The notes under the pieces: model-generated
Database searches by the model: none
Seen by the model: the letters and a program-made list of their open reading frames with translations, nothing else
Told to the model about the DNA's origin: nothing
Made by a program: the position numbers and the translations under genes
DNA from: Coemansia sp. RSA 487
Taxonomy: Eukaryota > Kickxellomycota > Kickxellomycetes > Kickxellales > Kickxellaceae
Direction of reading: 5' to 3'
Length of the DNA: 64,000 nt
NCBI GenBank assembly: GCA_027577595.1
Contig: JANBRJ010000001.1
Location: forward strand, 372,001 to 436,000
Shown: positions 7,482 to 58,589 of the stretch, in pieces
Layout of the letters: the number at the start of each line of letters is the position of its first letter
Position numbering within the stretch: the stretch's first letter is position 1

Positions 7482-10047
7482 ATTTAAACAGCTAGTGTTG
7501 TTCTACAGATACAGAGCAGCAGTATGTATTTTGAGAAAGCCTGTAGTAGCAATAATAGATATACCACCGGCTATCAGCAACTGAAAGAGATGCTAGTTTA
7601 TAATGCATTCACTTGTGATATTTACCTTAAAGCGGTAGGTCAAAAACACAGAAGCGATCTGGATTTGTGACTTGGTGCAATACAATAAAGACCGAAAAGC
7701 TGAAGTCAGAAATTAAGAGAAGAGTAGAGAAACAAAAGCTTTCTTTGCTTTCCGCCTCCCGCCACCAGGATGAGAGTGTGCGCCTTTTTCAAGAGCTTCG
7801 TTTGTACAAGTATATGATGGCTGTGTGCGATAAGAACCCAATCCTACGGAATGGCACAAAATAACACTGGTGGGTCTAGGGGCCACAGACAGTGGTATAT
7901 TTATGCACGCACAGGAAGTAAAGCGATAGAACCAGAAAAAATAGCCAACTTTCTTTTTGCACAGGCACGAATATTCTCTTTGAATGGAAAAGAGTGTGTA
8001 GCGTATAAATAAAATAAAGCGGATGTCGAATACACGGCTTATATTTCCAAAGCTATATGAATAAGAAAAGAAAGAATAGGAGAGAACAACAGAGAAACCG
8101 ATTTAACGGCTCGAGTGTCCAGACAAGCTATTTAAATAGGCGAGCGTTATCAATTTTCGTCACTTTCTTTTGCATTGTATCTTGATAATCAATCGCAGCA
8201 TTGACGCACGTCTGTTGCCGAATTTATCATCTGCAGCGCAAGGATGCGTTCGTTCCTCCTTAAACTGTAATAGTTTGAGGTAGCGAGAAGCTCCTCTATC
8301 TTGGGTGGTGGGAAAAACAAGGAATATCAAAAGAAGCAATGCACGGACATCAGCCAAAAATGGCTTGCCTCATATTCCCCTTTTTGAGCTTCATTTTCTT
8401 GCTGAATTGCTGCGGCATGCGCCCAGACAGCAAGCGCTTTCTATTGTAAATTAACCTCTGTGGCGATCAAAAAAATCAGTTTTGGAATTGCTGTATTGTA
8501 TCCGCACAAATGGCATTGTGTGCACCATTTTTCTCAAAGAACTGGATAGAAGAACACTGATAGTATGTGCCATTTCAATGGAGCTTTAATTCAGGCTTTA
8601 CTCTCATCGATTTACACGCACAAAAGGAACGTATATTTTGAAGCCCCGAGTCAAGATAGGATGTAGCAGACATGTGGTCATATCATACGCTGCGTGTGAA
8701 AAAGGCACATTAATGACACAGCTTAAAGCCCAGGAGTAGCGTACGTTACTTTTGCAGCGAACACAGTGCCATCTGACCTCTGCTTCAAAACTACCTCTTT
8801 GGATATATCCAATAACAGTCATCCGATAAAGGTGTACGTCGCAATTGAGGATATATAGCCAGCTGTGCACAAGATCGCTAGTAATCGACCTTTGATCAGT
8901 GGGAAATTATTTACCCTATATGAAAAGCGTGAGATGCGCACAAAGTGCAATGCTAATGGCGTAGCCTGTTCCTGATTTCTAAATTCAGACCAGCAAGCAG
9001 TAAATTGATCCAAGAGAGGTACTTATTCGTGTGCGGAGAGACGAATCGTTCGAAACTCAGATTTGCGGCAAATTTAGCTATGCAGCATGTATCATGAATG
9101 CCTCTTTTGCAAAAAGAAGACCTCAAGCACATTACAGAAACAGCAAAAAAATAGAACAGCTCACACTAAGGTCAGCTGGGGTGCCTATCCTTTTCCGGCT
9201 GAGTATCAGTGAATGGGTGCGGACGCGAAAAAGAAGCGTGCTGATTTCGTCTACAAAGACGCGTATATCCTCTCTTTTTTAGCGGCATATTTCTTTATAT
9301 AAAGAGAAAGCCCTTACAAAGAACAGGTTTCTACAGAATGCGCATAGAGAGATGAGGGAAAGCATCGTGCATAGCGATATGCGGGCAGACTCATGCATGC
9401 AGCAACTTATTTTGTAGCAAGGAGTATAAGGGTGTCCAAATACCTTATCATGCGGGGTGTTTGAGCTGCAGCCCGCTCTTTCGGATGGTCTTTTTACGGT
9501 CTGCTGGACAAGAAAATTGGGGGCAAATCTATGATTGACACGGTATTGCCAAAGTGAGTTTTTATATATATATAAAGAATAGATCGAGAAATTTCGATAT
9601 CCGACACTTGGCGTGCTTGCATGCAATGCACACTTTAAAAGACTACATCTCTTTGCGCTGAAGGCTTTAGTCACAAGGCTGCTGCTGCTTGCGAGCCATA
9701 TGGCGGGGGGGGGAGGGTAAAGGCAATGCTGAGTATAGCAACTTTTCGTGGATGTGAGAAAAGAGAGTGGTGAGGTTGGCCATGTGTCCGTGTGCTGGCT
9801 TTTAGTATTGCGAATGACCACTTCCAACCACTGCCTAAAGCAAATAAATATAAGAACGTATCTTGGCAGCTGCTCCATTCTTCTCGCTTTTCCTATTCCT
9901 GTTCATCTTCATCTTCATCTCTAGCTATTTATTACGCATTGGCATATTTTGCATAACTCTTGCATTGCATCCCATCATAACTCTTGCATATTTCATTAAA
10001 TCTGGGCAAGTCCAAACACACACATTCTCATAACATACACTACTAAA
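7482..10047. other. 2.6-kb divergent intergenic region
   Basis: This separates the ABC transporter start (minus) from the small orphan gene at 10048 (plus), so it should hold both promoters. It is AT-rich with scattered short open frames that lack coding-like composition. A G-run near 9704-9717 and a short TA run near 9564 are the only simple repeats. No tRNA, snRNA or transposon was recognised. Confidence 0.5.
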
Positions 10048-13174: not shown

Positions 13175-13620
13175 AAGAAGTGGGTGAGATGAACAGCTGC
13201 TGCACAATTGTGACCTCTTTCTTTTGCTACAAATGCGCGACGTACTGGAGTCAAGCTCAGTTGGATTTAGTAATCCGCTTCAATCCCGTCCCCTTTCTTT
13301 TCTTTCCGTTTTTTGTCAGAGGTTCCCTTTTTTTTCTGGCTTGCTTGCAGCTTCTGTGTTTATATTGTCTGTCGTGTTACCATAGTTTTTGTTCCAGCGC
13401 GCTGCCCTCCCAGGCTTCTTATCTGTGGTTCTCTATGGTTTGTATTATCTGTCTTATTCAGTCCAGCCATTGCCATTGCCATTGCATCCAGCCTTGAGCA
13501 AGCACGCACTTGTGCAGAGACTCTGTTGGCTTTATTTTATTTTGTTACCTATCCTTTTCTCTTGAAATACAACACTTTGGCACTTTCGCAAGGACAAGAG
13601 CCCTATAGAGCGTAGGGAAA
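13175..13620. other. Intergenic, INTS9 to nucleoside transporter
   Basis: This is 446 bp, C/T-rich on the plus strand, between two co-directional genes. It holds the INTS9 3' end and the promoter and leader of the next gene. No TATA box or repeat stands out. Confidence 0.45.
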
Positions 13621-15207
13621 ATGGCACACGAGACCCAACGGCTCCGCTACATATACTGGCGGTTTGTCGCCCTGGGAATAGCAACACTAATGGCGTGGAA
13701 CATATACATAGTCTCATCGGATTTCTTCCGGTATGAGCTGCGGAACACGCCATTCCGAGACAACTTTGAAAGCCTGTTCTCTGTGCTCTCGAACAGTGCC
13801 AACCTGGTGGCCCTCAGCTATGCGCTGTACACACAGCCCAAGGCAAACCACGACAGACGGATCCGTGTTGGCTTGCTGGCGACATTGGCGGTGTTCTGTG
13901 TCATTCTACTTCTCCCGCTGTGCGGTATTGATGGCTGGTTATCTCTGGCAGTGGCTCTCTTTGCGCTGTGTGTCGCTGCAGTGGCTGCGGCATACATCCA
14001 GTGCTCAATCTTTGGAATCGTCGCTTTGTTGCCGCCATGCTGCGCTGAAGGGTATATGAGTGGACAGGCCATCGCTGGCACAGTGGCTAGTGCTGCACAG
14101 TTGCTAGCTGTATACTCTGGTCCTGCCGATCCAGGAACTGATGGGACGGCGTCTGCTAGTCTAAACGACAAAGATTTGTATCAGGACCGGTTGCGTTTGC
14201 GCACCACTGCATACTTTTGCATCTCGGCTTTGTTTATGGCTCTGTCAACCGTTGCCTGGATACAGCTTCATGCGCGACTACCACTGAAGCAGCAGCAGAA
14301 AGTGGAGATGGGAGTGGAGGGCGATGGGCACAGAGTTCTTCAGGACTGCGAGTATCAGGAACTACTGGCTGATACAGCAGAGGACGAACAGAACAGCAGA
14401 ACGCTTGTTACATATATGGTTGAAGGTTCGCCTCATCTGGTACATGAAACGCTTGATCACCAGGGTGAAGAACCAACATCTACAGCTATCGCAGAAGGTT
14501 CTCAGAGACAGCAACAAGTGGATATATTGACCGAAATGAATCGCTCAACCAGTCGTACAGATGAAGCTACTGACCATATACCCGCATTTGCGGAACACCA
14601 ACCTCCACAGTGGATGACAGCACTAGGACTAGACAATACGCATCTAGTCTATACCACATTTCGTGAAATATTGCCATACGTCTACATTTGTGCTATCGTA
14701 ATGGGCCAAACGTTGGCTGTCTTTCCGCCTCTGACAGAAGCTGTTGTCAGCTCACCTGAAAGCAAGCCTCGTGTCGCGCATCTGGCTGCGTGGCATTTCC
14801 TCGTTTTCAATCTTGGCGATTACCTTGGACGCCTCAGCACTCAGCGGATCAAAGCCAGCCCGTCGTTGTCTGCTGGACATAGCTCATGGCTAGCTGCACC
14901 AAGGATCCTTCACTTAGTCAACGGCGCTCGCTGGCTGCTGGTTGTCATTTTCCTGCTCTTCCCAACCAATGTGGTAGACCCGCCGTTCGTTGGCGCTGTG
15001 CTGCACTCAGACCTCCTGTTTCTGTTCCTTGTGGCTGTTCTTGGCTGGTCGAATGGTTGGGTCGCGACAACAGCGCTTATACTTGGCCCACAGTCCGCAT
15101 CAAACAAGGAACTAGCTGGGTCGATCCTTGGGTTTGCGCTGTGCGCTGGGCTTGTTGTAGGTGCGCTGGCATCGTATCCAGTACTTCTCGCCGCCGGAAT
15201 ATCCTAA
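13621..15207 (+). CDS. Equilibrative nucleoside transporter (SLC29/ENT family)
   Basis: A single-exon 528-aa membrane protein. The first helix carries the ENT hallmark 'MAWNIYIVSSDFF' (compare 'PWNFFITA..YF' in animal ENTs). About 11 hydrophobic segments can be counted: six before and five after a long hydrophilic loop at roughly residues 225-325. The penultimate helix, LGWSNGWVATTALILGPQ, matches the ENT 'SNGYL..L.M..aP' motif. ENTs move nucleosides or nucleobases down their gradient; the yeast member Fun26 is vacuolar, and location here is unknown. The central loop is acidic and Gln-rich and is the least conserved part. The gene converges on the Tc1 remnant and the Lys/Glu-rich gene. Confidence 0.88.
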   Translation: MAHETQRLRYIYWRFVALGIATLMAWNIYIVSSDFFRYELRNTPFRDNFESLFSVLSNSANLVALSYALYTQPKANHDRRIRVGLLATLAVFCVILLLPLCGIDGWLSLAVALFALCVAAVAAAYIQCSIFGIVALLPPCCAEGYMSGQAIAGTVASAAQLLAVYSGPADPGTDGTASASLNDKDLYQDRLRLRTTAYFCISALFMALSTVAWIQLHARLPLKQQQKVEMGVEGDGHRVLQDCEYQELLADTAEDEQNSRTLVTYMVEGSPHLVHETLDHQGEEPTSTAIAEGSQRQQQVDILTEMNRSTSRTDEATDHIPAFAEHQPPQWMTALGLDNTHLVYTTFREILPYVYICAIVMGQTLAVFPPLTEAVVSSPESKPRVAHLAAWHFLVFNLGDYLGRLSTQRIKASPSLSAGHSSWLAAPRILHLVNGARWLLVVIFLLFPTNVVDPPFVGAVLHSDLLFLFLVAVLGWSNGWVATTALILGPQSASNKELAGSILGFALCAGLVVGALASYPVLLAAGIS

Positions 15208-18043: not shown

Positions 18044-21000
18044 ATGCCGAGCTTCTGGACCTCCGACACCCCGCTGGCCGAAATTAAGGCGCGAATCTAT
18101 GTGGACGCCCAAACGGCCGACCATGAGCGTACGCTTTCGATATCCAATACGGCTTACAATGCACTCCAGCAGTCACTAGTCCGGCGAAAAGCCCTTCATA
18201 GGTGGTCTACAACCAGCATAGACGCCATTGATGGTATGTTCTAACACAGAGTGTATATATACATCAGAACAGAACCAGCACCACAACATGAGCAGCATGT
18301 AAAGTAGGATGGCAGTTGTTAATAGCACGAATTATCTTTAAAAGAATACTACAGTTGATCTCTTTTCTTTCGTAGATATCTGCTATGCCAGCATAAAAGT
18401 CAATGGAACTGACAGGATGTTGTGTGTAGCTCGCATTGTTCGGGATATCACACTGGACAGCACAAGGCTATCAGATCGCGACATCTATGCATGCAGAGCA
18501 AGCCGTGCTACATGGACGGCCATTGCAAAATGCGTGGATACAGACAGTTTGAATGAGGCATCGATCGTTGCAAACATAGAGCCCATCGTCCCTGTGGAAT
18601 TATCGGAGATTGTTCTCGGCGTTGTGAGTGATCAGTATGCAGATGCACTCGATGCGCAAGACAGAATTGCCGATTATATCAGATCGCGATCCCAGCTGTA
18701 TTACCAAGGCCACAATATTACAGTCCGAACCAGTGCGGATATCTCTGGAAGCCAAGACACTGGAGTTTCGATTTCGTTGACATGTCTTATGTGCCAGCCA
18801 GTGATGCAAGGTATTATTCGCCAGGGAACCAACCCACGTATAGTCATAACGAAGCTTCCCACAAATGTGCCAAGTATCACAAGTCAAACATCCAATGTTT
18901 CGAACCAAGTCGCAAATGAGGACATGGACGATGGCCAGTGGGATTTGGGCGTCGAGTGGTTTATCTTGGGTGATATTCCGCTTGGAAGTAACAGGGACAA
19001 AATTGCAGGCGCAGCATTCAACGACATGCTTCTTACTAATAAGGCAGACACATTGTCGTTAGATCAGCTAAACAAGCCAGGTCCAGCAAAACCTACACAA
19101 CCAGTGAGCGTCAGCGCTTCTGTTCCATTTACTGCAAACATGTTGCAAAGCCCAATTGACATTTCGCAGGTGTTGCCGTCTCCGTATGCCAACGAGGACA
19201 TTGATAACCGTGGCTACATATCGTTAGCTGCTTCGGCAAAGGCTGGTATTATCAGTGGAAGTTGGGTCCTTATCAAGCCGGAATTTAAACGCTCTTCATC
19301 AACATGCTCTTTGAACTCGCCAGGAAACAGTGGCATCTCATCAGATCTGGACGACAACCACAAGTCGTCAAGATGGTCTCAAAGAGCCATTCGTGTTTTT
19401 GCGCTGGATAGCATACCATCAACCAGCACGCTAGTGCTCCCACCACTCTTGTTCCACAATGTATTTTCTGCTTCTGGGAAGAGTTCACAATTAGCCGTCC
19501 AGTCGGCAAAGCGGTCTTGTGAAGCTCGCGTTCTGGTTACTCCGCTTGGATTTTCACCAGATGCTCCTAGCCCTGCATATTTAGAAAGTATACAGAGTCT
19601 GGCACCAAAAACCAAAGCAACACCGCAGCCCCCACTTCCAGTTGCCAAACGGGTATACATCGCACGTATTTCTTCGCCTCTGTCTGAGCGCCGCGATCTC
19701 GAAACGCATACACTTGCAGCCCTCGAAAGATGGCTTTCACCGTTGGTATCTGAAACAAGCAATATAGATGATGTTCCGCTGAGGGTGGTCAAAGAAGGCG
19801 ATCTGATAGCAGTGCATGTTTCTCTTGCTGATGCTGTTGTTCGCACTAGTATTGCAAAGGTCGCAGGCACTGATGTTGTAAACAGACTACGCGACAATGG
19901 ACAGGAAGTAGATGCTAGCGCAGCTGATGTTAACCCAGTAACCGATCTAACATTGGAACGTCCAATTGTTCATTGCGACGATTTGCACACACAGGCGCTT
20001 GTATCCGAAAATGAGTTGGTGTTCTACCAGGTCGTAGCAGCGGAAGGGTTTAGACGCGCGCCTGAAACCTATGCTTTGCCTTATTCGCTCAAGGCGCTTG
20101 ACAAAGGAGGTTCAAACGAGAATGACGAGGTGACAGATAGCAGCGACAGCGAGAGTGAGAGCGAATATGATAGTGACGAGGAGTTTGATTATGCCTTGTT
20201 TAGACCAGTCACCTCAGATAATTCTGCTGACAGAAAATGGGCTATGTGGTACCACCAGGTACATGGCAAGGGCTTTATTGTCCTTCCACAAATAACAATG
20301 GTTGTTCAGGCCGGATCTGTGCATGGCCATGTTCCGTACCAGACTGTGCGTATGTTTTCGATGTCGCAAATGCAAAGCCCTTGTGAAGATCCAGCAAGCC
20401 CAAGCACCGACAACGGCGCCAGCACATTGAGCGTTCCATACGCAAGCGTTCAAGACCAGCTTGTCCGTCTCGGAAATGCATCACTGCACCCACTTGCTAT
20501 CGCACACAAGCTTGTTAGCGCAACGTTATTGAAAGGCAATGCGGGGACCGGGAAGCGTCATATAATACGCGCCGTTGCGGATACACTGGGAGTCCATCTG
20601 TACGAACTGAGCTGCTACGACATACTGTCCGATACTGAAGACAAGACAGCCCAGGTTTTGAAAGTGTACTTTGAAAATGTCGGGCGCTACACACCATGCG
20701 TTCTCCATCTACGCAACCTTGAAGCCTTGGCACTAGCTACCAACGCCCCACCTGGTCAGGATAATTCTGACGATTTGCCGATCGCGCGTGTCTTTGAAAC
20801 ATGTATTGCAGATATTAGCCGTATCCATCGCCAGTCAGGGTTCCCGATTATTGTCGTTGGCACGACCAATCAAGCAGACAAGCTTCCAACATCACTTGCT
20901 GCAGTGTTCCGCCATGAGGTTGAACTTTCGGTACCAGATGAACAGGCTCGTCTATCGTTGCTAAACAGCATAGCTAAAGGCGGCTTGCGGCTTGCGCCTG

Positions 21001-22592
21001 ATGTTGATCTTGCCTACATTGCTCAACAAACAGCGTCGTTTGTCGCTAGAGACCTCACTATGCTCATCAAGCGGGCTGAGAAACATGCCTGGAGACGTGC
21101 GCATAGAGTAAATTCAAAGGCCAATAATTCCTATCCTGCTGCTGTACCTGACAGCACTCCGATAATAATTCGCGATCTTGCTCTTTCTGGTCAAGCAATC
21201 ACCCACGACGATCTTCTTGGGGCACTGGGCGAGGCAAGAGCATCCATGTCCGATACACTTGGAGTCCCAAAGATTCCAAATGTGAAGTGGGACGATGTTG
21301 GCGGCCTGGCAGATGCAAAGAAGGACATCCTAGACACAATTAGACTTCCGATGGAGCAACCACATCTGTTTGCTTCTGGACTAAACACCCGATCTGGCCT
21401 GCTGTTTTACGGGCCGCCTGGAACAGGGAAGACCTTGCTTGCAAAGGCAATTGCTACCGAATGCGGCCTCAATTTCTTTAGCTGCAAGGGACCAGAGCTG
21501 ATCAGCCCGTATATAGGCGAGAGCGAGGCAAATGTCCGGCGTATATTCCAAAAGGCACGCGAGGCTAGCCCCTGTGTTGTTTTCTTCGACGAATTGGATT
21601 CGCTTGCTCCCAAGCGTGGCCAGCAGGGCGATTCTGGAGGCGTGATGGACCGGATTGTCAGCCAGCTTCTCGCAGAGCTTGACGGTATGAGTGGTGGATC
21701 TGGAAACGAGAATGAGGACAGTAGCAAGTCAGGCGAAGATGGCGACAAGGCACTGTCGAGTGCGTCTGCTGTCCAGGTGTTTGCAATCGGCGCGACAAAC
21801 CGCCCAGATCTTCTCGATCCTGCTTTACTGCGCCCAGGCCGCTTTGACAAGCTGGTGTATCTTGGGGTCAGCGAGACCCACGAGGCACAGCTGAATATTA
21901 TACAAGCGCTGACGCGGAAGTTCCATCTTCATCCGGATCTCAACCTGCGCAAGGTCGCTGATCAATGCCCATTCCATTATACCGGCGCTGATTTCTATGC
22001 ACTGAGTTCAGATGCTCTACTCAAGGCAATGCTGCGCACGGTTGACGAAGTCGATCTTCTGGTTAAGGAATGGGATGAAGGCAAAAGACCCGGGTCCATG
22101 GACACGGAATCCCAGAACGAAGGTGGGTCTTCCGACAAGCATTATCCAGTGCCAATGACGCCACAGTACTATCTGGACCACATTGCGGACGATAGTGTCA
22201 AGCAAGTAACTGTGACTCTAGATGATTTCGAAAAAGCGCTTGATGAACTAATTCCATCGGTGTCTGCGGATGAGCTAGAAAGGTACCAGACGCTTCGGCA
22301 TCAGTTTGACTCGGCGCTAAAGGAAAAAGAAAAGGACAAGCTTAAGACCAAGAGCCAACAATCATCTGGCGATACTGGTGTAGGCGACATTTATGAACAA
22401 GAAACGAATGCTTCCGGCGATCACTTTTACACGCCCCTGAACGAGTCAGTATCATCATCGCAGCAGCTACCCGAAAACGATTATTCTTCTGTTGCTCCGA
22501 AAGCAAGCATTGAATCTGACAGTGTGGCAAAAATGACGGGAAGCAAAAAGAGTAAAGGCAAAGGCAAGGAGCCAGTGTACTACACTTCCTAA
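18044..22592 (+). CDS. PEX6: PEX6, peroxisomal AAA+ ATPase (2 exons)
   Basis: Exon 1 is 18044-18233 and exon 2 is 18376-22592, with a 142-nt intron (GTATGT...CGTAG); product 1468 aa. The join rebuilds an Asp codon (G|AT). Pex6 pairs with Pex1 in a hexamer that pulls ubiquitinated Pex5 from the peroxisomal membrane. The N-terminal half holds the divergent N-domains. D1 has a Walker A (GNAGTGK, about residue 784), but its Walker B is degraded to VLHLRNLEAL, as in known Pex6. D2 is fully active-looking: GPPGTGKT (about 1075), FFDELDSLAPKRG, and GATNRPDLLDPALLRPGRFDK. Two features separate Pex6 from Pex1 and Cdc48: KGPELISPYIGESEANVR and CPFHYTGADFYALSSDA. An acidic Ser/Asp/Glu stretch precedes D1. 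The Lys-rich C-terminus lacks a typical targeting signal. Confidence 0.93.
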
Positions 22593-28830: not shown

Positions 28831-29244
28831 ATGGTTACTTTTGCCCCCGTCATTCTTGCCCTTGCCTCGATTGCCAGCATCGTCGTCGGTCAACAGTGCT
28901 CTGGAAACGAGTCAAAGTGTCCTAACAACGCCGATGGTGTTTCGCCGACCTATCTCCAATGTGACAGCTGGTCGCATCAGTTTGTCTCCGCCAACTGCCC
29001 CTCTGGACAAGTTTGCTACGCTAACCCTAACAAACCCGGCACTGCCATGTGCGGTCTTCCGGGAACCGGCGGTATCCCAGGACAGGGCAAGTGCACCGGA
29101 AACACAGCCAAGTGTGTTTCGAATGGAACGAGCGGTGACTACTACCAGTGCAATCAGTGGTCTGGCCAGTACGTCAACGCAAAATGCCCAGCCGGTCTCT
29201 TGTGCCACAACAACGCAAGCAACACTGGTGTGTTCTGCCAGTAA
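28831..29244 (+). CDS. Secreted double CBM19-like chitin-binding protein 2
   Basis: A 137-aa tandem paralogue of gene 1. A signal peptide (about residues 1-20, ending in IVVGQ) is followed by two six-cysteine modules with the motifs YLQCDSWSHQF, NCPSGQVCYANPNKPG, then CNQWSGQYV and CHNNASNTGVFC. The second module has NGTSG and NNAS sequons that could be N-glycosylated. The same chitin-binding inference applies as for gene 1. A TA dinucleotide run directly follows the stop codon (29245-29262). Nothing suggests loss of function. Confidence 0.85.
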   Translation: MVTFAPVILALASIASIVVGQQCSGNESKCPNNADGVSPTYLQCDSWSHQFVSANCPSGQVCYANPNKPGTAMCGLPGTGGIPGQGKCTGNTAKCVSNGTSGDYYQCNQWSGQYVNAKCPAGLLCHNNASNTGVFCQ

Positions 29245-29455: not shown

Positions 29456-29980
29456 TTAGCTCTGGTTCTCCGGGCAGTCGCGGCTAATATGACCGGTATT
29501 GTTGCACTTGTAGCAGACCTTTGCCTCTGGACAGTCCTGGTTCATGTGGCCCTCCTGTTTGCAGTTGTAGCACACCTTGGCCTGGGCCTGCTCCGTGCAT
29601 TCGTTGCGCATGTGGCCCGGCCTGCCACAGTTGTAGCAGGACTTTGGCTGAGGAGGCATGGCACAGTTGTCGCGGGTATGGCCAATTTGGTGGCAGTTGT
29701 AGCACTCCTTCTCGCGTCTATCCCTGAAAGAGTTGTTGCCGCGGGGAGTTCTTTGGTACGGCTTTTCAGCAACGGGCTCTGGGCAGTCGATCTTCTGATG
29801 GCCGGGCTGGTTGCAGTTGTAGCATATTCTCTCAGTGGGGTTATCGCAGTCCTTGGCCCTGTGTCCAAACTGATTGCAGTTGTAGCACCTAACGACAGAT
29901 TCCCCAGCGGTACAATTACGCGACAGATGGCCAGGTTTCTGGCAATTGAAGCAGCATTTCGGTTGGTAAGTCTGTTCCAT
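29456..29980 (-). CDS. GIS2: CNBP/GIS2-like protein with seven CCHC zinc knuckles
   Basis: A 174-aa protein starting at ATG 29980 (MEQTYQPKC...); the frame opens further upstream only from a TTG. Seven C-x2-C-x4-H-x4-C knuckles can be counted, from CFNCQKPGHLSRNC to CYKCNNTGHISRDC, joined by short linkers. A basic Arg/Asn-rich patch (TPRGNNSFRDRREKE) separates knuckles three and four, as in CNBP-type proteins. Yeast Gis2 and human CNBP (each seven knuckles) bind G-rich single-stranded nucleic acid and associate with ribosomes and stress granules. Retroviral-type Gag is excluded because the protein is only knuckles with no capsid. It is divergent from the KICS2-like gene across about 500 bp. 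Confidence 0.88.
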   Translation of the reverse strand: MEQTYQPKCCFNCQKPGHLSRNCTAGESVVRCYNCNQFGHRAKDCDNPTERICYNCNQPGHQKIDCPEPVAEKPYQRTPRGNNSFRDRREKECYNCHQIGHTRDNCAMPPQPKSCYNCGRPGHMRNECTEQAQAKVCYNCKQEGHMNQDCPEAKVCYKCNNTGHISRDCPENQS

Positions 29981-30466
29981 TTTGATTTGCAAATTAGCTG
30001 TTGCGATTGAAAGTATTTATATAGTATGCGCAAGATGAAGCAAAGGACAAATAGTGTCAAAAAAAGGCAAAACGAAAATTAAACGAAGTAAAGTGGTGCC
30101 AAAAAAAAAGTGTTGCATCAATGTTTTTTGCGAGCTAGAAAAAAATTCTCTCATTCTCTGAACCCACCAACCAGCTTCTAATCAAATCCTCTATAATCAT
30201 TGGTGATTGGACAATCGGCTAATGCAGCCGTAATCAGTGGTTAAAAAGGATTCAGGGATTTGCCACGCATAAATGGTGCTGCATTTCGTTTCCCTTTCTT
30301 TTCTTCTCCTGTTTGTCAATGCAAGACAGGCATTTTGTGTGTCTCGAACATCTTAGTTGGCAAGATACAAAGCATTGGCGCAAAATGTCTGTTTCCTGTC
30401 TCCTGTCCCTCTTTCTAACAAACGTTGTTTTTCTGGTACTTTAGCTGCACCTGTATATTTATTTTT
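29981..30466. other. Divergent promoter, GIS2 and KICS2-like gene
   Basis: This shared upstream region contains two close ATTGG (reverse CCAAT) pentamers near 30199-30212. A TATTTATATAG near 30014 is a possible GIS2 TATA box. The plus strand becomes pyrimidine-rich toward 30460, as in leaders elsewhere in the window. Confidence 0.45.
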
Positions 30467-30511
30467 ATGGCGTCCCACGAAATATGCCCAAACTGCAGCT
30501 GTCGTCTTTAG
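30467..30511 (+). promoter_or_regulatory. Upstream ORF overlapping the KICS2-like start codon
   Basis: An ATG at 30467 opens a 14-codon frame (MASHEICPNCSCRL) that ends at a TAG inside the main coding sequence. It is 17 nt upstream of, and out of frame with, the proposed start at 30484. If the transcript begins upstream, this would reduce initiation at the main start. The true transcription start is not known. Confidence 0.35.
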
Positions 30512-33500
30512 ACGAGTTTATTGCGAGCCTGAGTAAGCAGGACTACGAAGCCGCCAAGATAGCCAGCGGCAAGGTCATGGAGGTAAGCAGCAACAAAGTA
30601 TCTGCGGAGCCAGTATACTGCCAATGAGTTCAAATTCAAGCAAGTAACTAGCGGTTTTCCTGGCCTCTCTCTTTCCCAGCAGCCATTTACAAACGCTATC
30701 CCTTTTCCAGAACAGATACACTTAGTAACTTATTCGCATATATCCCCCTTCTCTTCCAACCTACTGCTTTTTGATTTTGCTCAAACAAAGCATAGGACCA
30801 CATACAGATGGGCGCACTCATGTTTTCGTTGCTTACGATTGAGATGATGTACACATCAATGGACTATCTGACGCCAGGGAACTTTCAGCGCGGGAACGGC
30901 TACATGCTGAGCATGTACAATGGCTTGCCTCGGCGGCTGCGCAGACTGCACAAGAGGTTGGTACTTGAGTACCAAGAGGAGCACCAGCGGTTGGTAGCGT
31001 CGTTTGTGCACCCGATGCAAAGCGATCCCACGGCACGCACAGACCCAGGAAAACAGAATCATTCAAGTCGTAGCGCTTCGAGGCTTTCTGGGCGTCCAAA
31101 CAACACAGCGTCTGCATTCCAGCCAGTTAATTCAGAAGGTGGTGGCAGTAGCAGCGGTGGATGGCGACTCAGTGCTCGTGATGTTCGGCCAAACAGCGAC
31201 AACCACAAATCGGCGATATCGCAGCATTCAAAGGCCAGTGCACCAGATTCCTTTGATCCAAAACACTATCTAGGCAGCTTGGAAAGGGCCGAGAAGGTTC
31301 TCGAGGATCTGGAGGCCTTGTCGCTGTTTGTGGAGTTTATCATAAAGTTCATCGACGTGCGTAAAACAATGGTTGTGCTTTATCGGTTCGTTGCAGTAAC
31401 AAGCCCAGTTCTTTACGTACAAAAGCTGGATATCATGCTCAAGCGCTGCAAAAGGCTGATCGAGTCGATACAACCAAGCCATCACTATCAAACACTACTT
31501 GATAGTGTCCGCAGCGAGGTGTGGCTTGTGCGCAATATAGTTGACTGGGATTCGCAGATTTTGGCGTACAATTTTGTCAAAGCAGTCACGACAATGCAAA
31601 ACACACGAGGGCTACTAAAATCGTGGCAAGAGGCATTTCCTGAATGTGCAGGCACTCGGACGTCAGCAGAGGCGATAGAAGCAGCGAGGGCGCACTCAAA
31701 GGCTGTGGCAGATGCGTTAGGCTCGGCCCATAATACAAACGACGGCGGCTTAAGCGAGGGAGCTGGCGACTCGTTTGCGATGCAGCAGCATAACGCTAGC
31801 AGCCGGGGCTCTGCGCGCTCCTCCTCGCAAGGGCTGCTTTACATGGCGTTTACAAAGTCTTCTCAGCTTGTACAGAATTTGTTTTGGGGAGGAGGCAATA
31901 CCAGCTCAGCAGACGAAAATCAAGAGTCGGGTCATGCTCGCATACATGGGGTTGTCAAGCTGCTGGACTGTTGGGTGAGCTTTCTTTCATTCAAGACCAC
32001 CGCTTACTTTCAACAGATCATTGCATCCTATCGATCGCTCTACTACGATGACATGGCCGCACAGGCAAAGAGAACGGCCGTGATTAACGACATATGGTCA
32101 CGCCCAGAGCTTTCAAAAACAGATCTCGGCGAAACTCTGCACAAATTCATGACAAGCAACGATGCATGCTTTGTCACGCTTTTGTTCGAATCCTCAAAGC
32201 AACATCCATTTACTGCTGATGGATTTGCACTCCGCGGCACAAAGATCAGCGTTTCTGACTACCGAGTTCAGGCGTGTGCAATTCTGTTCTGTATAACTAA
32301 TGAAAGCCTGATGGTAGCGCGCGGGCGCTCGCTAAAGGAATCGATTGTTCATGATGTTTACTCGATAAATTCTGGGCCACCTCAGAGAGCAGCTGGAAAT
32401 GTCGCACTGCAGTCGGACGTCGAGTGGTTTAGACAAAACTGCCTGCCAGACATACTTTACATTCTAGACGGCGACCGCGAGACATTAGACTATGAGTTAC
32501 TCGGATCAAGCCCTCTTGTTGATCGGCTAGGTGCAAATGCAGACGAACTTCTTGTAGAACTTGGCGATTTGGTGCATGAAGTTGTTGGGGAGGCTACCGA
32601 GCCTGTTCATTCGGCACAAGAGAGCGCGGGCGATACGCTAAGCTCCATGGAGCACGATATATACCATGCCGAGTATCCATCGGATGATGCAGCTAGCGCC
32701 AAGCCAAATGAAAATTCAAATGTACATGTACACAACCCACAGTATCTTGGATACGAGCAACACAACCAACAGCCACTAGAGGCGCCTCACCACGGCGCCC
32801 ATAGTAGCACTGTAGGCAGCGACCACGCAGTAGGCCTCGGAGAGGACCACCACGATAACCCGAACCTGTATTCTACATATTTGCTAAAGTCGCACCTACG
32901 CAACAATCTACAGCACGAAGAACAATTGTACAGCGGACGTGGAAACAGGCGCTTCGCCGGCCGACATTCTAGCCAGGCCATGCGGAATAAACAGGGCCAA
33001 GCTCGCGTTACTGGCGACACAGTGGAAAGAATCGGCCCGCAAAACAATCGAGATAGCGGCAAACACAACAGTCGGGACCACACATTAACACAGCAAACAA
33101 CCGGGTATACAGGTCCAGTAGAATCTGCAAAATCCGCACAAGCAAACATAAAGGGTTCACAGAAACAAGGTGGCGGCATTCAGCGTCTTAGAAACTCTGC
33201 TGCAGACCTTTCGCTATCCCATGCTGCTGTCGCATCATCGGGAAACTCTGCGAAGCGACGCGTAGCATCTACATCTAGAGTGTCTGGCATTGGTAAGGGG
33301 TCTGGGTCTGAAAGCAGCCTTCCAGATCAAATATCTCCAACTAGCTATATGCGGGATACTAGTGGCCGGCATCGCGTAGCTTCCATCCAAGCTATCGGCT
33401 CCCAGCCACAGCAAGCGATGCGCAAGAACGCAAATACAATCAGCACGCCAAGCCCTGGACGCAGACGGGCAGCACAAAGTATCCGCTCTCTGTTTAACCC

Positions 33501-34230
33501 ATCCCTTTTATTGGGAATGGGATCGCATCAGACATCGCCCCAGGAGCAAATTCCGGCGGAAGAAAGCGCAGTTGAAAAGCGCGTGCGTCGTGGAATGAGG
33601 CTAAGAGAGCTGTTTGGCTCGTGGAACATGCGTGGCGGCGATGCTCCCGAAGATACCTCAGCGCTATTTTTAGGAAATGGAAGAAGAGGCTCGATCCACT
33701 CATTCTCATTCAGCACGCCAACACGAGCAAGCGTAGGACCAAGACCTGCTGGCGTCACTGCTGCAGCGTTGGATGCCGCCACATCGCAAGCAGATGAAGC
33801 TGGTGGCGGATTAGCCTACCGCCTGTCACGAGCAGCAGCAGCATCTAGTATATCTATGGAGTCTGACGCGCCAAGACGCACAGGCGAAGTTGAGTCGATG
33901 AGCACACTGGACCAATTGCGGCGCTTCAACCAGCTGCTACCTCAGCAAATATTACGTGTGCCGCATGCAAAGCAGCAGCAGCAGCAGCAACCGCCGCCGC
34001 CACTGCATTCGGGGCATTCGTCGTCTGATGCTGTGGCTGGAGTTACGTCTGAAACATACACGTATTTGTATGCGCGTGTTGGTTTGCCCAATGTTGTCAT
34101 GGTAGCGGCTCTGCTGGACACAGAACGGGGGCTGGCGTGCCGCAGCGACACACAGCGCGAATGGGATAAGATTGTTGACAAGCTGCGGGGAATGACACTG
34201 TTTGAGCAGATGATGACAGTGGCAGGCTAA
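30484..34230 (+). CDS. KICS2: KICS2 (C12orf66)-like KICSTOR subunit homologue (2 exons)
   Basis: Exon 1 is 30484-30582. Exon 2 starts at 30796 (TAG acceptor, preferred) or 30808 and ends at 34230; product about 1177 aa. Similarity to the animal KICSTOR subunit C12orf66/KICS2 (DUF2003, about 445 aa) is seen in order. An N-terminal helix is followed by SLLTIEMMYTSMDYL (human [22 protein letters not shown] region). Helices around residue 190 include FVEFIIKFIDVRKTM. LLDCWVSFLSFKTTAYF lies near residue 420, and KFMTSNDACFVTLLFES near 485 (human FIRKYDAANVSLIFD). The C-terminal strand is GLPNVVMVAALLDTERG (human HWPNVIMIMTDRTSD). A Ser/Gln/His-rich, probably disordered insert of nearly 500 residues splits the domain before this last strand. 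In animals KICSTOR anchors GATOR1 on lysosomes for amino-acid control of TORC1; a vacuolar role here is inferred. Confidence 0.75.
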
Positions 34231-46658: not shown

Positions 46659-49600
46659 ATGTGCCCAGCTCCGCTATATAGTTATTTCGACGCCCAACAG
46701 CTGGCCGATTTCATCATGAACAGCGAATTCCCCGGCTACGATGGCGCGAACACCACCCCAGCAACCAGCGACTCCACATTCAACCATATGCACAACATCG
46801 CTGCTTCCTTCCCCGGGGCACCAGACGATTACGAAAGCTACGACAATGCACGCGCACGCAAGCGCCGAATGACCGCTTCCGACGAGCGCCGGGCATCTGG
46901 CAGCTTTTCTGGGTTCACACTTCCTGATACCAGCAATGGACTGTTCTGTATGCTTGATCAGCAGCATAGCGGCTTTGTCGGCAGCGCCCAGCAGCAAGGC
47001 TATGGATCCTCCGGAAGCATGTTGCATTCGGCAGGGCTGTCGTCGCTGCCTGCTCCTCCAGATTCCGGAAATTCGTCCTTGAGCACTGGGTATTCCGCAA
47101 ACCCGAGCACCGACAGCAGCACTGGTAGCGTCGGCCTTGTGCAGCAGACTGCGTCTTTTTTCAGCGGAGGAAGCTACAATGGTGTCGATGGGATGACATC
47201 CCAGAGCATGATGCTAGGCAGTCCTTCCTCTAACTCGAGCAGACCCGTAAACGGACGGAAGCACCAGTCGCTAAGCATTTCCGTCGGCCGCACCTCTCAT
47301 AACGAGTAAGTATTGCTGTTTATGCCTTCCGTCTTTTATTGGCAAATATCTCTTTTCCGCTGACGCATTTCTGTTCTCGTGTTTAAGCTGGCATGCATTC
47401 CCGAGCTTGGCTTGTCTGTGCGTGGATAGGCTTGCTTCTTTATTTACCTTTTTTGGGCCAAGCCGCATACGAATAGTGTGGCCCACTTTATGCGCGCCGC
47501 CCGTTTCTCGTAACTCCCTCTTCCCGCAAATTTTACTGCGCTTCTTTGTGCGCCTTTTTCTGCTCTTGTCTGCTGCCCAAATTGACTGTGATTGACACAT
47601 GTTTCGATTTACTCCTTTCTGTTTTCCGCCAAAAAGCTGGACGCCGTTCTTTATTTTGGGCGTGATCTGGCCATGAGATTTGCTTGTGTATCGCGGGTCT
47701 CTCCTTTTGTTTTGTTCCTGTTTGTGTGTGAAAGAAGCCTCCATTGTTTCTTTCCATTTTGGTTTCATCCAAAAGCCCTGCTCAGACGAACAAATGGGGG
47801 TTATGCATTGCTAGCCGTGTGTACGAACAAGCTGCTGCTGTGCTCATATGATGTAACCCGCGTTCATCCGCCAAGTCCTTCTCAACCGAGCCACTGGTCA
47901 TAAACAACCTACCTTTGCTTTCTGTGGCTGCCTAATGTAAAAGTCAGCAGAGCAACGCCCCTCTTCTTTTCTCTCTCTCTGTTGAAATCCTAGAGCCATT
48001 TATCATTTCGAACTGGCATCTATCAATCATCTGCTACAGATGATTTCTCTCTTTCTCATCGCTTGGCTATCATCATGTTATGCTGCACATCCATTTCTCA
48101 TGTGATCGCTTCTTGTCTACAATACACTTTCTTTTGAAAATCCTCTTTTCTGGTGACAATCTCCCCTCCATCGCACCAGAAAAATGCTAAAAAAAATAGC
48201 TGGCACAAATTACTAAACACAGCAACACCTATTGCCTCGGTTTGCCAATTGATTTTGATTCTGCACCTTCGTTCTCCATAGATTTGGCGGCAGCTCACAG
48301 GAGCCTCCAACGCCAGGGATGTTTTCGCCCTCGTTTATGGACGCCATGGAGGGTGCCGCTGCCGCTGCCGCAGTCGCTGCTGCAGTGAGCATGTCCTCGC
48401 CGCCTATGGTTTACAATGTTGCTTCGCCATACACGCCTGGACATTCCCATAATGCTACACATCACAACGGCTTTCCTGTGCCATGCTCTGGGACGCAACA
48501 GCAACATCATCAGCATCAGCAGGGACAAAGCACTGCAGAGTTCCTTCATGGTGCAGCAAACACAGCAATTGACGCAGAGAACAGCACCATCAGCCCTGGA
48601 TCAACAGCCATGTCCAGCACGCTGAATGCGACAATGCTTCGGTCAAACACTGTCGGATCTTCCGTCAGCGGAGGCTTCGGTAGCGCTGAGGACTTTACTG
48701 CTGGTCTACATATCAATATGAATGCTGCTGCAGTTGCCGCTATGGGCAGTTCGTATGACGATGGCGCCAGTAACGCCGGTGCTGGCTCTGCATTTTCCAG
48801 AGTCCAAGATGCAGGAGACATGTCGCAGCTGCTATGTAGCAGTGGGAGCATGCCTGGCCAGACCATTGCCGGAATGGATCTGACCATGGGCTCTAGCTTT
48901 GCCCCATTCACCAACATTCCGGGGCTCGAGCAGTTCTCGCCGAACCCGTGGGACCGTCAGAACCTCTTCTTGAATACCGGTGCAGCCATTAACAACGGAG
49001 ACATTGGCTCATCATACGGCATGATGACCACCGATCCTTCGCTGCTGCATAGCATGGATGGGTCAGTGATGCTTCACGATGGCAGCGCCTCCGACAACTC
49101 TCGGTTTTCCTTGGCTTGTGGGCCAGCAGCAACTCTAGGAGCTATTTCGGCGGTAGGTTGTGACGTTTCTATCGCTTCTCCGCTTGCAAGCGCCAAGAAC
49201 ACCAAGCCCCGGAGCCCAGTGGCAATTCCAAAAAGATCCCGCAAGCGCGCGGCAACAGTGGCCAACATCCACTCCCAAGACAGCCAGCAGTCGATATCTT
49301 CTGGTGCCCTTGACGCAAGATCTGCCAACTATGCGAGCAAAGACACGCCTTCAACGCACTCGAGATCGTCCAGTGCAACGGCTGCGTATACTGGCCCAGT
49401 ATTCAACAGCCAGGCCGTTGTTAAGGGAACAGGGAGTAAGGTGATGATGGTGCTGACATCAAAAGTTGCGCAAAAATCGTATGGAACCGAAAAGCGCTTT
49501 TTGTGCCCTCCGCCTACCATTCTGATGTTTGGCACCTCGTGGCAGCTTCCCACGCTAAACTCCAACGACGGCTCCGTCCAAACGACAAACGGTGGCAGCG

Positions 49601-52221
49601 ACATGAATTCGGCGATGCCACGCATATCTGTTTCCGTGACATCCTCTGATACCTCTGGACAGGGCGGCGACAGTGACTACATGAATGATGCTGGCGCATG
49701 TACTCGCCGGCTTTCGGTGTCTGGCTCGTCTGTAGAATCGCGCACATGCCAGCTCGAATGGCTTTCCCAGCCAGAACTAACGCCCAAGCCAAAGGCACAC
49801 GTTCCGCACAACCCGGTCCCTCCAGTGCGGCCGCCGCAAGAAGGAGAGCCAGTTACCGGGCGCTATGTTGCAAAGCAGTTGTTTATCAACGACGTCGATG
49901 AAAAGCGCAAAAAGGTCTCTGTCAAGGTTAGAGTGCACGATCCGTCAGGAAAGCTAATGCTAAACGAGTTTGACTCGCGGCCGATCAAGGTGATCAGCAA
50001 ACCGTCAAAGAAGCGCCAGAGTGTCAAGAACGTCGACTTGTGCATCCACCATGGCTCGACAGTTTCGCTTTTCAACCGCTTACGGTCCCAGACTGTCTCT
50101 ACAAAGTATCTTGGCGTCACACGCTCGATGTCTGTTGGTGGGCCGCGCCCATTCTGGTTCCCGGCCCTCAGCGACGAGTCCAAGGCAGCAATGCAGCAAC
50201 CAGGCAGTGATGGGCGGACCCCAGGACCCGCAAACAACACGACATTCGTCGCCCGCAACGCAGTGTGGGATCCATTTATCATTTGGATTGTCAACACGCA
50301 CTTGGACCAGAAGGAGATTGATGCGTTCAATGCACGCATCACTGAAAACCCGACACCAGTACCAGGATACCCGACACCACCAACGTTTGCGTTGCACCCG
50401 CAGTGCCCGCCAGACTTTGACTCTGGTAATAGCAATGTTGACGAACACGGTCTTGGTGGTAGCTGTGGCAGCAGCATCAACGGTGACATTGCAGGACAGC
50501 CTCAGCCAAGAGCCCCGATCCCCATCCTCTATAACCAGCCAGTCATACTGCAGTGTGTCAGCACTGGAATGTGTTCGCCGGTGCTTACCCTGCGCAAGGT
50601 CGAAAAGGGGAGCCTTGCGGTGGGATGCTTCTACGGCCGCGACCACAGCCGCGACGTTCTTGGAGATCCTGTTTCGCAGCTGCACAAGGTTGCCTTTGAG
50701 GTGCGCGTTCAAACGCTGGAGGAGCTGCCTGCCGTGACAGTCACTCCTGCCGGGCTCAACACTCGTGTCGGGTCTTACTTGACGTGCATGGGCGATGTTG
50801 TTGGATTAAATTCCACATGCGATGGCCGCCAACTTACCAGCGATGCTTCGAGCGGAAGCAAATCCAGCGGTGGCTCTCGTGCAGCGGCGGCGGCGCCCGT
50901 CCAAGGACGCAAGCAGGCGAAGGACAGCGCTTCTGTGGGGACAACATCGTGGGCTGAGGACGTGGGGGATAACGCAGTGTGGACTGTGGTTGGCACCGAC
51001 TGTGCAATCTATCGCTTCGACTACCCAGACGAGTCTGAAATCGTCGAGAGTCTTCAAAAGCCTGTTTCCGTTTATAACAACCGCAATGCATCGAATGCCT
51101 CTGCGTCGGCGGCAGCAACTGGTTCCGTGTTGCCGCATGCATCGCTTAACCTGCCGCCAACGCCAACCTCACCCCATGGTGTGCAGGACTACTCACATCA
51201 AGCGCACCAGCAAGACAGCGGCTTTTCGCTAGATATGATGCTGGCGAGCCAAAACACGACAGGAGTCTCTTCTGGAGCTAACGCAGAATTCCACGGTACT
51301 GGGTCCCTTGATGCGTCGTTTGCGGCCGCGATGTATGGAATGTCCGTTCCTCCTGGCATGGGTGATAACCTGGCATCCCATTTGCTTTCATCGTCCCCGC
51401 AAATGATTCAGTCGACCGCTGCTGTAGATACAGCAACACTGTTTGACAGCATCGGAAACAGTGGCAATAGCAGCAATGCAAACATGGTTGGACACCCAGG
51501 AAATGTCTCGGCTGACCAAATGAGCTCGCCAGTGGCAGGCGACAGCTTGATTCCAATCGTCTTCAAATCATCTGTCCAACATCCCCCTGCAATCAGCCCG
51601 CTGTGTCGCGACGCAAGCAACAATGGCGGTGGCATGCAATCTGTGACTGAGCGCGCCGTGATCACAATGCAAGGCCTCAACTTTACGCCTGATATGGTTA
51701 TGCTATTCGATGGCAAGGCGAGTCTTTATACGGAATTCAAATCATCCGATGGCATTGCGTGCTTAGGGCCGCTGCCGTCAGAGTTTGCCGATGTTTTGGC
51801 GCAAAAGGCGGGGGCAGAAGACGATGAATGTGCTGGCAGCCGCCACGACGCAATCAACCAGAGCAATGGTAACAAGCAGCATCTATCATCTCCAAGCATC
51901 AGCGACTCGTCTTTGTCGTTGCACCATTCGAGCAGCGATGAAACAGCAGCGTCCTTTGTGCAGTTGGACCAGAACGATTCGCCGCGTACGCATCGCGCAT
52001 CATCGGCCGAATCGACAGCATCATCCACCAATTCTACACTCAACAGCTCCAGCTCTAGCAGCACCTCTTCAGAGAAAGCTGGCAAAAATAACGGTGGTAG
52101 CAACAGCCGCGTTCTTGCAAAAGGAACGAAAAGGATGCTTAAAATTCCAATATACCTGTCGCGGAATGGCGGAGCAGGGCCAACTTTCAAGACTGGCCAG
52201 TTTTATACGATGCACTTTTAA
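46659..52221 (+). CDS. CSL (CBF1/RBP-J/LAG-1) transcription factor, long fungal form (2 exons)
   Basis: Exon 1 is 46659-47305 and exon 2 is 48282-52221, with a 976-nt intron (GTAAGT...CATAG); product 1528 aa. The join gives GA|A and reads TSHN-E-FGGSSQEPP in frame. CSL proteins bind GTGGGAA-type sites; in animals they are Notch effectors, while fungal members (S. pombe Cbf11/Cbf12) act without Notch in adhesion and lipid or cell-cycle control. RHR-N begins near residue 620 (RFLCPPPTILMFG). The beta-trefoil core has the diagnostic LFNRLRSQTVSTKYL near 812. The C-terminal Ig-like domain lies near 1300-1370 (MQGLNFTPDMVMLFDG). The first 600 residues are Ser/Gly/Met/Gln-rich, with a poly-Ala run near the start of exon 2 (GAAAAAAVAAAV). 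Long Ser-rich loops interrupt the core, as in fungal class F2. Confidence 0.92.
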
Positions 52222-57288: not shown

Positions 57289-58422
57289 TCAGCCGCGGTT
57301 TCCGCCGCGATTCCCTGATCCCCTAGGGTTGTCGTCCTTAAAGTCGTCCCACTCGCGCTGCTTAGCTGTCTCGGCATCAAGCGCATCGTAGTCATTGTCA
57401 TCGATCTCTGGCTTCATGTCAGGTTCCTTGCCTCCGCCGCTGATAATGTTCCCACGCTCTTTTTCCTGCTGCAAGTACTCGTCGACAGTCATTGTTGGTA
57501 GAGCCCATCCCGGTCGAAACACGCCATCCTTGATCCGCTGCCGGTCGTTGGTGATCACAAAGGGCTGTGTTGGCCTACCGCTCTTGTCAAAGATCGTGCG
57601 AACGGGCTGTCCAGTTCTGGGGTCGATCTGGCCATACGAGCCCGAGTCCAACCGCCAATCTTCCTCACGGGACTGCTCTGTTACTCGGACATCGCCAGAC
57701 ACGGCTCCGCTTGCGTGTCGCTTCATCTCCTCCATCTGTTTGGCCATTACGATCTCGTCGCTTATGGCGCTCATATCATCAATTACTTGGTAGCTTTTTA
57801 AGTCGATGAGCTTAATAGCATGCTCACGCTCAGCCTCATCCATATCATCGTCACTTCTTGAAGAGAGCTTTGCCTCTAGATCGGCGATAGCCTGCTGCAT
57901 TGCACGCATCTGCTTGAACCGCGCGATCTTCTCCATCCTGCCTTGCCCCGCAGCTAACGGGTTTCTATCGCTTGCAGCTGAGTCGCCAGAACTGGTCTGA
58001 GCTGCACTACGGTTCGAGAATCGAGAAATCAGCTTCTTTTCTGCTTCACTCGACGGCTTAAATATGCCGAGCATGAAACAGTTTGTCAGAAACTGCCTGT
58101 ATTGTTCCTGCGCCTCTTCCAAGACACTCACACGGTTTTCGGGAGCATGCAATTTCTGAAGCGCTTCTCCGAGGTACGCATTGACAAGAATTAGTTTCAA
58201 TTCGCCGGTCGAGTAGTCATCGGGTGTCTCATTACTGCTAAACAACGATAGTTGGTGTACTTGTGTGTCGCATTGCCGCAAGCGTCCCACAAGACTCATT
58301 GCCTGTTTTTGGTACTCCTCGCTGCTGGAGCCATGCTCAGAGCTGTTGAGTGCTTGCAACTCTCGTTGAGAACGCTCGAAATTCACGCGTAGTGAGTCCT
58401 GCTTTCCGTCCTTTGGGTCCAT
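57289..58422 (-). CDS. TAP42: TAP42/IGBP1 (alpha4), PP2A-associated TOR effector
   Basis: A 377-aa protein starting at ATG 58422 (MDPKDGKQDSLRV). The frame continues 31 codons upstream, but that part is Phe/Leu-rich leader, so 58422 is preferred. TAP42 proteins bind the catalytic subunits of PP2A, PP4 and PP6, and in yeast are controlled by TORC1. The N-terminal alpha-helical domain has LSLFSSNETPDDYSTGELKL (yeast LALFSTNETIDDVSTASIKF), the strongest family match. Also present are FLTNCFMLGIF, the basic RMEKIARFKQ helix, ITNDRQRIKDGVFRPGWALP and MTVDEYLQQEKERG near the C-terminus. The tail is acidic then Gly/Arg-rich. It is convergent with the MFS gene. Confidence 0.92.
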   Translation of the reverse strand: MDPKDGKQDSLRVNFERSQRELQALNSSEHGSSSEEYQKQAMSLVGRLRQCDTQVHQLSLFSSNETPDDYSTGELKLILVNAYLGEALQKLHAPENRVSVLEEAQEQYRQFLTNCFMLGIFKPSSEAEKKLISRFSNRSAAQTSSGDSAASDRNPLAAGQGRMEKIARFKQMRAMQQAIADLEAKLSSRSDDDMDEAEREHAIKLIDLKSYQVIDDMSAISDEIVMAKQMEEMKRHASGAVSGDVRVTEQSREEDWRLDSGSYGQIDPRTGQPVRTIFDKSGRPTQPFVITNDRQRIKDGVFRPGWALPTMTVDEYLQQEKERGNIISGGGKEPDMKPEIDDNDYDALDAETAKQREWDDFKDDNPRGSGNRGGNRG

Positions 58423-58589
58423 TCTAATGTGTATTTGAAACAAAAGCAATGGAATAAAAAGCAATTTAATGAAAAAAGCAAAGAGTGAAAAAAAAAAACC
58501 TGTAAGCAGTGCCACGAAAATAGCTAAAGGAAAGAATCATCCAGTTTTCCGTAAACGCTTGCTCTCTGAAGTTTCTGTATTGCCCACCG

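Follow-up and report, generated by a model that had tools for sequence, protein, structure and literature searches.

In a 2021 review (PMC8534245, in the part available to us), KICSTOR was still described as mammalian-specific. Its presence in non-Dikarya fungi has already been reported, by homology, by Barua et al. 2025 (PMC11836306), using BLASTp at 1e-5 with human, mouse, budding-yeast, and fission-yeast queries, with losses verified by tBLASTn from the nearest relative. In the portions of that paper accessible to us, Kickxellomycota is named among the phyla in which one or more KICSTOR components are absent, which ones not being stated, and Coemansia is unnamed in the main text. Besides that study, no report of KICSTOR in Kickxellomycota or Coemansia was found in the literature searched. 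Here, we describe a gene from Coemansia sp. RSA 487 (order Kickxellales, phylum Kickxellomycota), located in a stretch of 64,000 nucleotides (the window; contig JANBRJ010000001.1, positions 372,001 to 436,000), whose product is very probably orthologous to animal KICS2 (C12orf66), a scaffold protein of the KICSTOR complex. The original prediction for this gene had proposed that KICSTOR is common to animals and early fungi, an inference that Barua et al. had already published in 2025. The gene is thus a divergent variant of a known KICSTOR subunit; what is new is the full KICSTOR set in a Kickxellomycete and a motif-bearing insert in KICS2.

The gene occupies 30484..34230 on the plus strand, as originally predicted, with two exons and one intron encoding 1177 residues (all features of the gene given below are on this strand). 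Exon 1 (30484..30582, residues 1 to 33) is in frame from the ATG to a GTAAGC donor and is followed by a predicted phase 0 intron of 213 bases (30583..30795, GTAAGC...CATAG) and by exon 2 (30796..34230), an open reading frame holding residues 34 to 1177 and the stop codon. The hypothetical protein IW138_000166 (P0001) of Coemansia sp. RSA 986, found in NCBI, starts alike, has the identical junction, and shares both the length and 1176 of the 1177 residues. The difference is at residue 409 (Q in the window protein, H in P0001) and may be due to a difference between strains, a sequence variant, or a sequencing discrepancy; the residue lies outside the core of the trimmed profile used below (A2), the first row of which, like the first AlphaFold model, was built from the P0001 sequence. 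No second copy of the gene was found in the genome at E ≤ 0.01 (17.8 Mb in 184 contigs, the window lying inside contig C1).

Taken by itself, the window protein makes a weak sequence case for KICS2. Against Pfam PF09404 it scored 14.3 bits (E 0.017), under the cut-off of 22, and mouse KICS2 (2gnx) was third among its matches in the PDB (E 1.8). Replication terminator proteins came first in this single-protein search, at an E value of only 0.33, and were displaced by KICS2 when family profiles were used. The family of relatives makes a better case than the window protein alone. At E ≤ 1, 19 of the 22 matched PF09404, with a best value of 3.3e-5, while the Pfam family ranking second in number of matches was found in 7 (best 0.053); two of the eight relatives tabulated singly exceeded the Pfam cut-off, and one relative, P0036, carries a precomputed PF09404 label. 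When the core profile A2, made from nine of the 22 relatives with the variable segments and the insert removed, was compared with the 177,635 distinct sequences of the PDB, three KICS2 sequences took ranks 1 to 3 (E 2.6e-4 to 1.3e-3), and the best sequence other than KICS2 had an E value of 0.075. The untrimmed 22-member profile also placed KICS2 first, at E 0.044. With hhalign, positions 8 to 366 of the trimmed core aligned to 40 to 355 of an 18-row KICS2 alignment at E 5e-4 and a modest probability of 31%, compared to 1.2% for the untrimmed alignment. Both the PDB profile and the hhalign results improved once the variable segments had been cut out.

In a local control using the fungal profile, all 19 KICS2 sequences (the human one, those of 17 named vertebrates, and that of a protein without a name) outscored all 2000 shuffles of human KICS2 as well as the 19 sequences in reversed form. 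When the roles were swapped, 16 of the 22 fungal cores outscored every one of the 2000 shuffles and six did not, the P0001 core reaching only E 5.1. Scanning the entire genome for PF09404 gave no match at E ≤ 0.001, and control genomes were silent too, so this is no proof of absence. Homologues of the window protein (33 matches among 7991 candidates scored) and of the core profile (18 among 7996) came only from Coemansia, Kickxella, and Martensiomyces. Human KICS2 had 237 matches, and among the 120 listed, every named row was a vertebrate, some rows being nameless. Among the matches listed in these homologue searches, no fungus bridged Kickxellales and animal KICS2.

The original prediction was built on five ordered blocks shared with KICS2, which we scored separately against human KICS2 and 2000 shuffles of it. 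The first three stood, none of the shuffles scoring as high as any of them: block 1, the N-terminal helices (residues 1 to 104, 30484..31008 with the intron inside; human 17 to 105), which beat the best shuffle narrowly (5.2 versus 5.1 bits); block 2, the helical core (residues 185 to 316, 31249..31644; human 151 to 230, 13.5 bits), where the PF09404 match falls; and block 3 (residues 418 to 515, 31948..32241; human 285 to 330, 10.5 bits). These three are collinear with human KICS2. Block 4, the presumed start of the C-terminal domain (residues 574 to 640, 32416..32616), and block 5, which contains GLPNVVMVAALLDTERG (residues 1117 to 1177, 34045..34227), each have a mean conservation of 0.77 within Kickxellales, but their scores against human KICS2 were equaled or exceeded by 375 and 276 of the 2000 shuffles, respectively, and were not significant. 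Since neither block did better than shuffles, the last strand, GLPNVVMVAALLDTERG, put forward as key evidence by the original prediction, was not established by sequence as a KICS2 strand. Block 5 is predicted to form a strand-strand-helix unit (strands 1121 to 1128 and 1133 to 1140, helix 1149 to 1164), and a second model shows these elements too. The homology is carried by the N-terminal and middle parts of the protein, and the C-terminal part is assigned to KICS2 by its position and predicted shape.

Structure prediction led to the same family. Both AlphaFold models matched KICS2 best in two fold searches: the four highest rows of one search were KICS2 cryo-electron microscopy chains for both models, and Foldseek ranked KICS2 first for both, yet with E values of 0.25 and 0.57. 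Neither model resolved the C-terminal domain (blocks 4 and 5) well. The predicted homology to KICS2 is thus backed, for the helical part, by the insert-free PDB profile, the PF09404 matches of the relatives, two fold searches, and the partner matches described next.

The original prediction had proposed searching the same genome for the partners of KICS2, and all three other KICSTOR subunits were matched, each in a long open frame. ITFG2 was recognized by PF15907 (E 2.4e-28) in a frame of 2652 residues (contig C12, 118151-126106, minus strand). The KPTN frame has 806 residues (contig C50, 59614-62031, plus strand), and its strong matches in the PDB were the three sequences of kaptin, with E values from 6.2e-12 to 7.2e-12; the match ranked after them had an E value of 0.071. 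The same frame also matched the BBS7 beta-propeller family PF23743 marginally above the cut-off (E 2.1e-6), a sequence similarity pointing to a possible link of KPTN and ITFG2 with the BBSome propellers. SZT2 corresponds to a frame of 5024 residues (contig C4, 197515-212586, minus strand) together with an upstream frame, and the evidence for it is confined to the N-terminal part. Two genome matches were collinear with human SZT2, at 75 to 141 (upstream frame, E 0.028) and 246 to 438 (long frame, E 6.1e-6), and for a 491-residue piece of the long frame SZT2 was the sole PDB match at E ≤ 10 (E 9.8e-8 to 1.2e-6). Two other long pieces gave no SZT2 match in the PDB with phmmer and no Pfam match. 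The GATOR1 subunits IML1, NPR2, and NPR3 were matched in the genome as well, and Rag-family matches were found at 12 places, two of them strong. Matches to PF11968 (SAMTOR/Bmt2) were also considered as a sign of SAMTOR, a claim that was dropped because this family also contains the ribosomal RNA methyltransferase Bmt2.

Compared with human KICS2 (PDB 25gf, 9v6e, 9van, and 9o5a; mouse 2gnx; PF09404), the Coemansia protein has the same order of blocks 1 to 3, a similar helical fold, and a genome in which the same set of partners was matched, whereas its C-terminal blocks are unrecognizable by sequence. It is also far longer (1177 versus 445 residues), with an insert of about 476 residues bearing four conserved islands, and extra loops. 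All four Coemansia KICSTOR frames are longer than their human counterparts (436 residues for KPTN, 3432 for SZT2, and about 447 for ITFG2), those of ITFG2, SZT2, and KPTN being lengths of open frames unconfirmed as gene models.

The insert (residues 641 to 1116, 32617..34044), the length of which the original prediction had correctly put at nearly 500 residues, is predicted to be disordered, with predicted local distance difference test scores of 23 to 43 over its blocks. Its mean conservation is 0.41, compared to 0.71 to 0.79 in the core blocks, and hydrophobic residues make up 19% of it and 40% of the core. Other poorly conserved loops lie at residues 105 to 184 and 317 to 375. Within the insert, four islands are conserved: island 1 (residues 721 to 741, 32857..32919, NPNLYSTYLLKSHLRNNLQHE, with a predicted helix at 724 to 740) and island 2 (residues 924 to 936, 33466..33504, RAAQSIRSLFNPS) in 21 of the 22 relatives, P0012 being the one without them, and island 3 (residues 955 to 977, 33559..33627, EESAVEKRVRRGMRLRELFGSWN, with two short predicted helices) and island 4 (residues 995 to 1015, 33679..33741, GRRGSIHSFSFSTPTRASVGP) in all 22. 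In a short orthologue of 786 residues (P0031), islands 1 to 3 were recognizable and island 4 partly so. Island 4 resembles the RRxS consensus of basophilic kinase sites, although the RRxS part is itself variable among the relatives. Judged by their conservation, all four islands probably serve in docking or as sites of phosphorylation.

The most likely function of the Coemansia protein would be that of a scaffold that holds GATOR1 at the vacuole and so inhibits TORC1. KICS2, SZT2, ITFG2, and KPTN would together form a scaffold associated with the vacuole, to which GATOR1 (Iml1/DEPDC5, Npr2, and Npr3) would bind; held there, GATOR1 would promote GTP hydrolysis by the GTPase RagA/Gtr1, an action through which TORC1 would be switched off under amino-acid shortage. 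The insert is predicted to emerge from the C-terminal region as a loop that leaves the helical core intact, and its islands could add lineage-specific input as docking or phosphorylation motifs. More speculatively, Coemansia might have a complete four-subunit KICSTOR, with every subunit enlarged, that acts as a signaling hub rather than a passive tether, the KICS2 islands being docking sites under regulation through which a second signal, e.g., from a basophilic kinase, would reach GATOR1 and TORC1; we regard this as possible, though doubtful.

A different function would follow if the protein were a true descendant of KICS2 that has left KICSTOR and been re-used, e.g., as a disordered signaling hub. 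Such a change would suit the strong divergence, the two C-terminal blocks that are unrecognizable by sequence, and an insert with conserved motifs that is missing from the 445-residue human KICS2. However, each of the three partners, as well as GATOR1, still has matches in the genome, and the KICS2-like blocks 1 to 3 are well conserved across the order (0.72 to 0.79), and we consider re-use improbable. That the protein is instead a Bro1-domain protein of the ALIX/BROX/HD-PTP type acting in endosomal sorting complex required for transport (ESCRT) sorting, its likeness to KICS2 reflecting a common helical arrangement only, is very improbable: Bro1 domains (BROX, HD-PTP, and ALIX) do share a similar helical arrangement with it and came close behind KICS2 in the fold searches, but with lower Z scores and lower identity (7 to 8% to BROX, compared to 15 to 18% to the four KICS2 cryo-electron microscopy chains), none of the 10 Pfam families with a match in the 22 relatives at E ≤ 1 bore the name BRO1, whereas PF09404 was matched by 19 of these relatives, and KICS2 was first by profile and by fold. 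Bro1 domains were the best structural matches after KICS2 in both models, and the KICS2 helical domain may, going by the models, be related to them.

Apart from the KICS2 orthologue, the window contains a TAP42 family gene (57289-58536, minus strand; PF04177, E 5.1e-85), a component of the TOR pathway about 23 kb away, the proximity of which is probably due to chance. A small zinc-knuckle protein (29456-29992, minus strand; PF00098, E 1.3e-44, with six stretches passing), of the Gis2/CNBP type, adjoins the KICS2 gene in divergent orientation. A short open reading frame (28831-29244, plus strand) begins like a signal peptide, carries two cysteine-rich repeats that resemble each other (QC..WS.Q.V.A.CP.G..C), and, by its sequence, looks like a small secreted protein. 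Further frames encode a CSL/LAG1 transcription factor of the Suppressor of Hairless type (48259-52221, plus strand, 1320 residues; PF09271, E 2e-38), a PEX6-like AAA ATPase (18342-22592, plus strand), an ATP-binding cassette transporter (1989-7502, minus strand), and a nucleoside transporter (13609-15207, plus strand).

While components are missing from Kickxellomycota according to the portions of Barua et al. 2025 accessible to us, all four subunits were matched in the Coemansia genome, and a BLASTp survey of the kind described there may have missed a protein as divergent as Coemansia KICS2. Our results suggest that one member of a phylum said to lack parts of KICSTOR has this arm of amino-acid sensing in full, and that the apparent absence of a gene can stem from divergence and long inserts instead of loss. 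Maps of TORC1-pathway gene loss in fungi can be tested anew with insert-free profiles, and the Coemansia protein offers a naturally occurring KICS2 that carries conserved motifs as additions.
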